Shown here piece after piece: positions 3,597 to 5,265 of a DNA stretch of 36,441 bases. The notes under the pieces are model-generated. The model did not search any database. It was not told where the DNA came from and worked only from the letters and a program-made list of their open reading frames with translations. This stretch comes from Deltaproteobacteria bacterium (GTDB lineage: Bacteria > Desulfobacterota > Dissulfuribacteria > Dissulfuribacterales > Sh68), in NCBI GenBank assembly GCA_021787835.1, contig JAJYLJ010000008.1, positions 1 to 36,441 on the forward strand, written 5' to 3'. The stretch's first letter is position 1. The number at the start of each line of letters is the position of its first letter. A program made the translations under genes and the position numbers.

Positions 3597-4919
3597 TTAT
3601 AATATAGTATTTAACAGGCCGCCGACTGGCATCAGATTTGCCACTAATAAGCTGTTTTCTATGGTTGCAAGATAATTATATAGTTTATAACTATATTGAT
3701 TAATATTATTATTTAAATTGTTAATAAAGCTACTGGTTTGATTATTTATATAATTTGTTATCGATGATGATTGTATCTCTTGTGTTATTGATATTATATT
3801 TGTTGCTATTCCACTCATTATATTTTGCACTTGATTAGTATTATTTGTTAATGCACTGCTCAATTGTGTTTGATTCACAGATAATGTATTATCATTATTT
3901 TGTGTTATGCCAATAGATTGCAGATTTGCAACTTGTGAATTAATAATATTGGTCATATTATTAAATATACCTTGATCAATATATGCATTATTTTGTTGTA
4001 AAAAATTAATCATTGCATTGTAATTATTTACAAAATTATTAATAGTATTATTAATAGCTTGTTGATCATTTGTTACATTAATTGTTACAAATGAACTTGT
4101 TGTATTTAATAAATTTAATTGTAAATTATTATTATCTATATTTATAGTGTTACTTCCTGATGTATATGCTTGATTATTAATTGTATAACTTGCATTACTG
4201 GCATAATTAATAATATTATTTGTCGAACTTACTGAAACTGCATTACCTGTTATATCTGTTAAACTAAAATTATTACTTGTTCCTGTATTATTTGCAATTA
4301 TTTCTAATTGACTTGTACTATTTTGGCTATTTGTTATTACACTGGCCGTAACACCAATATTTGCAGTATTGATGGCCTGTGCCATATTATTTAAGAATGT
4401 CTGATTGGTGTCTGTATTGTTGACATTGACTGATATTGGCGTAGTAGTTCCATTTATTTGTAAATTGAAAGTATCAGTACCAGTAGATGCAGTTGTTATA
4501 CTATTGCTGGAAAGAGCAGCGCCTTGATTTAATTGGGCTGATGCTAGTTGATTTATATATACACTATAAGTAGCTATAGTTGCCCCTGGCTGTGCGGTCG
4601 CTGTTACTTGATTTGGATTCGAAGACGTTGCGGCGACATTGTCAAAAACACTCGTATTGGCCCCCGGATAGCTGTCGGGGATGAGCGGATAAGAGGCTTG
4701 ATATAATTGGGCGGTATAGGTTCCGAGATTATTCAGCGCCTGGCTTAACATTATGGATTGCTGTTGATACATTTGGTTCAAGGAGAAGGTCTGGCTGGCT
4801 GCATTTTCTACCAGACTCAACAGATCGCTGGAGTTATTAACTCCGGCATTTTGAGCGTTGTTTAGATAATTAATGTAAAGATAATTGCTGTTTAAGTAAT
4901 TGTAATCTGTATTAATCAT
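3597..4919 (-). CDS. FliD-like (flagellar hook-associated protein 2 family) protein, strongly Asn-rich
   Basis: FliD_N-like VTATAQPGATIATYSVYINQLASAQ and FliD_C-like NTINNFVNNYNAMINFLQ...LQSIGITQNNDNTLSVNQTQLSSALTNNTNQVQNIMSG; no other flagellar genes in the window. Confidence 0.7.
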   Translation of the reverse strand: MINTDYNYLNSNYLYINYLNNAQNAGVNNSSDLLSLVENAASQTFSLNQMYQQQSIMLSQALNNLGTYTAQLYQASYPLIPDSYPGANTSVFDNVAATSSNPNQVTATAQPGATIATYSVYINQLASAQLNQGAALSSNSITTASTGTDTFNLQINGTTTPISVNVNNTDTNQTFLNNMAQAINTANIGVTASVITNSQNSTSQLEIIANNTGTSNNFSLTDITGNAVSVSSTNNIINYASNASYTINNQAYTSGSNTINIDNNNLQLNLLNTTSSFVTINVTNDQQAINNTINNFVNNYNAMINFLQQNNAYIDQGIFNNMTNIINSQVANLQSIGITQNNDNTLSVNQTQLSSALTNNTNQVQNIMSGIATNIISITQEIQSSSITNYINNQTSSFINNLNNNINQYSYKLYNYLATIENSLLVANLMPVGGLLNTIL

Positions 4920-5265
4920 CGGCCTCTATCCCTTTGCTCGATATGCAGGGCTGGCAACAGGATACAAAATTACAATAAATAAATTAAATAAATTTTATTA
5001 CATAATAATAAAACAGCGGATATTTAGTGTCAATAGCGCGGCGGCGGGTGCGGCAAGGGCGTAATGCGGCGGATTTTAATGACATGTAGGCCCCGCTATG
5101 GATATTTGGTCTTAAGACATGAACATATGCGTCGGGCAATGGACTTAATCGCGGTGGCACCTTGATTTGGGGCAGACCATAGAGGTTGACCATGCGTTTA
5201 AATGGAGTCGGCCTTCTAATATTTGTCTGGCAACCAGGGAAGATATTGGTTATATTGTAACGGTT

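Follow-up and report, generated by a model that had tools for sequence, protein, structure and literature searches.

The stretch of DNA analysed here (the window, 36,441 nucleotides) carries an isolated gene for a FliD-like protein, with genes for NrfA (PF02335) and an M50 peptidase as its neighbours. This orphan position had been noted in a first-pass annotation made from the sequence alone, and it holds, as no flagellar genes were seen among the window open reading frames (ORFs) read. The features of the locus are as follows.

3597..4919, minus strand: coding sequence of an orphan FliD-like protein of 440 aa, rich in Asn and with hardly any charge (ORF, composition, Pfam FliD_N and FliD_C, PDB profile search, Foldseek)
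3600..4529, minus strand: AT-rich interior and 3' part, codons 131-440 (GC4 0.09-0.36; codons 1-130 have 0.54 and the genome 0.62)
4785..4919, minus strand: N-terminal segment, residues 1-45, in place of the canonical FliD start (FliD_N matches from residue 46 and profile position 19 onward; family alignment)
4920..5179, minus strand: upstream region with neither a sigma-28 site above chance nor a riboswitch, unlike relatives (promoter and Rfam scans)

The first-pass annotation had recognised FliD_N-like and FliD_C-like segments in the product, and this is borne out by profile and structure searches. Both Pfam domains score above their curated cut-offs: FliD_C with 53.2 bits (E 3.5e-14, cut-off 25.4) and FliD_N with 30.2 bits (E 7.4e-7, cut-off 24.8). 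A profile built from the window protein and its relatives has E. coli FliD as its best match in the PDB (E 4.5e-26). The AlphaFold2 model of the window protein is of modest overall confidence (pLDDT 59, pTM 0.48); the 30 Foldseek matches obtained with it at E <0.001 are all FliD structures, the best being 9gnz (E 7e-15). Global TM-scores for these matches are low (~0.3), which is expected, because the model is multi-domain and the placement of its domains is uncertain. When a relative of ordinary composition is modelled on its own, its top Foldseek matches are FliD as well. The homologous core aligns end to end with few gaps and is predicted to retain the FliD fold. The NCBIfam FliD equivalog models do not discriminate, since the window protein's best score is 79.1 bits where 387 is required, and the genome's own canonical FliD also falls below (182.8 against 448). 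The window protein is a FliD homologue, covering D1-D3, without the canonical FliD N-terminus.

The missing part is replaced by something else. The FliD_N match spans residues 46-129, corresponding to profile positions 19-97, and the segment ahead of it (residues 1-45) is conserved across the orphan family, with M.ITGSYSNYL in relatives. The canonical GLGSG-like start that forms D0 is absent from the window protein and from the core orphan relatives. The AlphaFold termini are of low confidence in both the window protein and the modelled relative; given this and the missing canonical N-terminus, the idea that the window protein may assemble into a cap is only a proposal.

A canonical fliD, followed by fliS, is found at another place in the same genome, which also holds flhA and a flagellin gene, the latter with a sigma-28-like site (L038); the assembly is 2.03 Mb in 190 contigs and 88% complete. 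The window gene is therefore a second, orphan FliD paralogue. A host without a flagellum, and a genome without other flagellar genes as the first-pass annotation had allowed, are rejected on the same grounds. The first-pass suggestion that the protein has been repurposed away from the canonical cap is supported.

Of 45 further genomes in the family or order, one, that of a sister genus (G001), was found to have a close copy of the gene, with 74% (73.6%) identity. This orthologue (L035:7735-9043) is split by a frameshift from an 11-bp deletion, and it occupies an unrelated location, immediately 3' of a tRNA gene (L035:9264-9336). Full-length relatives are more distant and occur in Desulfatibacillum alkenivorans, a Desulfatibacillum MAG, Desulfobacterales MAGs, a Syntrophaceae MAG and others. 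A contig search with the window protein as query gave no match; a narrower alignment, without the diversity of the window pair, did find such relatives. They are likewise orphans in unrelated neighbourhoods, with host-like GC and an ordinary composition; Asn makes up 5-10% in the core set. The first-pass reading was exposed to contradiction from a lack of structural similarity to FliD, or from relatives of ordinary composition within a complete flagellar locus; the similarity is present, and such relatives lie outside complete flagellar loci.

The maximum-likelihood tree separates the orphans, the window pair among them, from canonical FliDs with 100/100 support and in 200/200 bootstrap trees, with a long-branch and composition-bias warning for some rows. 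The orphan FliD-like proteins of Desulfobacterota form a clade distinct from canonical FliD, and the window protein belongs to it. All ten carriers tested have both flagellin and FlhA. With FlhA at a base rate of 62% in the phylum sample (245/395), its presence in all ten would arise by chance with a probability of ~0.8% if carriers were independent; they are related and not fully independent. The orphan FliD protein would most likely be a flagellar export substrate, for which the occurrence of FlhA in ten of ten carriers is only circumstantial.

Two small proteins were seen in carrier genomes. One, of 120 aa (L082:9276-9638, plus strand), is a mini rod/hook protein with Flg_bb_rod and Flg_bbr_C domains only, encoded directly 3' of the orphan FliD gene in the same operon. 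The other, of ~120 aa with Flg_bbr_C (L179 in G425, the genome of L080), has its own c-di-GMP-I riboswitch, and its gene precedes one that is motB-like by eye.

The composition of the window protein is extreme. By direct count its 440 residues include 90 Asn (20.5%), 50 Thr, 49 Ser, 42 Ile, 37 Gln, 11 Asp, 4 Glu and 1 Lys, with no Arg, His, Cys or Trp, which equals an earlier hand count of Asn, Lys, Asp, Glu and the four missing residues and confirms the near-zero charge claimed from it. Asn and Gln together account for 29%. When 378 ORFs of >=150 aa, sampled from ~509 kb of the same genome, are ranked, the window ORF comes first for Asn and last for Lys+Arg; mean Asn is 3.2% (SD 1.65) and the second-highest ORF has 9.5%. 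The gene has a GC content of 0.31, against 0.50 for the window. Its GC gradient is not recent, because the G001 copy has the same gradient; the G001 orthologue also shares the neutral composition. The same genome has a second very AT-rich ORF at another locus (L149:4287-5414, G000 contig C32; GC 0.28, 375 aa), which is of ordinary charge.

From base composition alone one would expect 36-48 Asn and 37-42 Lys, where 90 and 1 are found, and the bias therefore acts at the protein level. The Lys count (AAA/AAG; 1 against ~37-42 predicted) rules out AT mutational bias as the only cause, with AT-ending codons making a contribution. The simplest account of the composition is protein-level selection against charge. 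Of 48 alignment columns that are charged in most relatives, 5 are still charged in the window protein, with Asn in 16 others and Gln in 7. A sequon-rich glycoprotein, as suggested in the first-pass annotation, is rejected: the 17 N-X-S/T sequons are at chance level, since shuffling the same residues gives 19.9 +/- 3.5.

Between the window and G001 copies, dN is 0.19 and dS 0.99 (YN00), with dS near saturation and the ratio approximate; dN is the same as for canonical FliD between the two genomes. The window protein is under purifying selection. This bears on the possibility that the gene is a decaying or selfish AT-rich passenger, with a composition of mutational origin and little function. 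Such a gene might well be an orphan in both genomes, low in GC, stripped of regulatory elements, frameshifted in G001 and adjoined there by a tRNA gene, but this origin is improbable in view of the low dN, akin to that of canonical FliD, the near-absence of Lys that base composition would predict, and the intact 440-codon frame in the window. Recent horizontal acquisition, another earlier suggestion, or import from an AT-rich donor, is also unsupported: the 73.6% identity of the pair is typical when set against an ortholog median of 68% and 71% for canonical FliD between the same genomes, and GC4 in the first 130 codons is near-normal (0.54), dropping to 0.09-0.23 in the interior. Among phages and plasmids no close homologue was found that would point to an origin there; the single phage match is weak and the plasmid matches are annotated as ordinary fliD.

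The relatives carry a regulatory signature. The motif TAAA-N16-GCCGATAA was sought with <=1 mismatch on both strands of ten loci (269,210 positions), and all eight matches lie upstream of orphan genes in the correct orientation. Eight of ten relatives thus have a near-perfect sigma-28 site in the 260 bp ahead of the orphan gene; sigma-54 sites gave no consistent match in these upstream regions. In seven relatives (L080, L081, L082, L083, L084, G382 (L069) and G313 (L070)) a c-di-GMP-I riboswitch (RF01051) is placed between promoter and orphan gene, scoring 53.7-82.8 bits against an Rfam cut-off of 35. Both Desulfatibacillum copies have the promoter and no riboswitch. At another locus (L079:6237-6298) there is a degenerate c-di-GMP-I aptamer of 19.9 bits, seemingly a decaying riboswitch, with the sigma-28 site and terminator intact.

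Terminator-like hairpins precede the start codon in all seven leaders examined, their arms differing in sequence yet remaining paired, as expected for a putative transcription attenuator. The ligand contacts of c-di-GMP-I riboswitches have been listed (PMC7288161), and because the first G of the aptamer GGCAAA is retained in the relatives' riboswitches, their ligand is expected to be c-di-GMP and not cGAMP. In the relatives' genomes c-di-GMP-I riboswitches also lie upstream of genes that, read by eye, resemble those for Flp-type pilins (L160, L162 and L165, in G313, G273 and G206), a MoaA-like radical SAM protein (L161 and L172, in G424 and G382) and secreted proteins. In the literature searched, which covered few subscription journals, no report was found that describes orphan FliD proteins as a family, or a c-di-GMP riboswitch controlling a FliD paralogue.

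This gating by sigma-28 and c-di-GMP in relatives, along with a FliD-like D1-D3 core that has no canonical start, would also suit a decoy that enters the FliD cap or takes its place and halts filament growth as cells settle. We regard such a growth-stopping role, with its putative interaction, as unlikely; the complementarity between aptamer and terminator, from which the polarity of the switch might be read, is inconsistent among loci.

The window lineage differs from these relatives. No sigma-28 site above chance was found upstream of the window gene or its G001 orthologue, and neither leader has an Rfam match to the c-di-GMP-I riboswitch; at relaxed E the matches for the window region are to implausible families, all under their own cut-offs. 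No c-di-GMP-I riboswitch was found anywhere in the window genome, at its 88% completeness, or in that of G001. Judging from these scans, the window copy appears to have lost both switches of the family. The regulatory argument therefore holds for the family, and for the window copy only by descent.

The loss of both controls, taken with an Asn+Gln content of 29% and almost zero charge, might point to a surface fibre or functional amyloid, neutral and Q/N-rich, that is built on a scaffold derived from FliD and uncoupled from the flagellum in the window lineage. This is quite unlikely, because the core aligns throughout with few gaps and has a predicted FliD fold, unlike a low-complexity amyloid domain, and because the composition of the relatives is ordinary.

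The reading that we consider probable is that the window gene is a divergent, stand-alone FliD paralogue encoding an accessory axial protein or tip protein that most likely serves as an alternative or adhesive tip cap, is made late and, in much of the family, is tied to c-di-GMP. In such a protein the family's own conserved termini would replace the canonical D0. It would most likely be exported unfolded via the flagellar type III apparatus and would act at the filament tip or close to it, in that role and not in that of the housekeeping cap. For most relatives, the sigma-28 promoter would restrict transcription to the time after hook completion, and the c-di-GMP-I riboswitch with its attenuator-like terminator would tie the gene to the decision between motile and sessile life. 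In the window lineage both controls are missing, and many charged positions have turned into the neutral polar residues N, Q, S and T under purifying selection. We infer the export route, the tip location, the adhesive or cap role, the polarity of the switch and the reason for the neutrality. More tentatively, Desulfobacterota may possess a second cap, gated by c-di-GMP and made after the hook under sigma-28, that alters the filament tip at the motile-sessile transition, and one lineage, freed from this control, may have made of it a protein of the tip or of a fibre, rich in Asn and all but devoid of charge; we think this possible, at less than even chances.

The usual view gives flagella a single kind of cap protein. 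If a conserved orphan paralogue is controlled by both sigma-28 and a c-di-GMP riboswitch, the decision to settle would be coupled directly to the filament tip, and the family would provide a testable alternative-cap or tip-adhesin hypothesis. Desulfatibacillum alkenivorans is a cultured carrier, having the sigma-28 site and no riboswitch. The window protein itself is a natural experiment, in which a known fold has been stripped of almost all charges under purifying selection.

Three known systems offer a comparison. With the filament cap FliD (HAP2), the window protein shares FliD_N and FliD_C homology, a D1-D3 fold and a low content of basic residues, but it has neither the G-x-x-SG-(L/I/M)-D type start nor D0, its composition is extremely neutral, and it is encoded by an orphan gene in a genome with a separate canonical FliD. 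The window gene and its G001 orthologue, with no sigma-28 site above chance, differ from the late (class 3) sigma-28-dependent flagellar genes, which eight relatives resemble in having TAAA-N16-GCCGATAA upstream. Finally, whereas the window gene is without a riboswitch, the orphan genes of seven relatives have RF01051 in their leaders, as do surface and motility genes controlled by c-di-GMP-I (GEMM-I) riboswitches.
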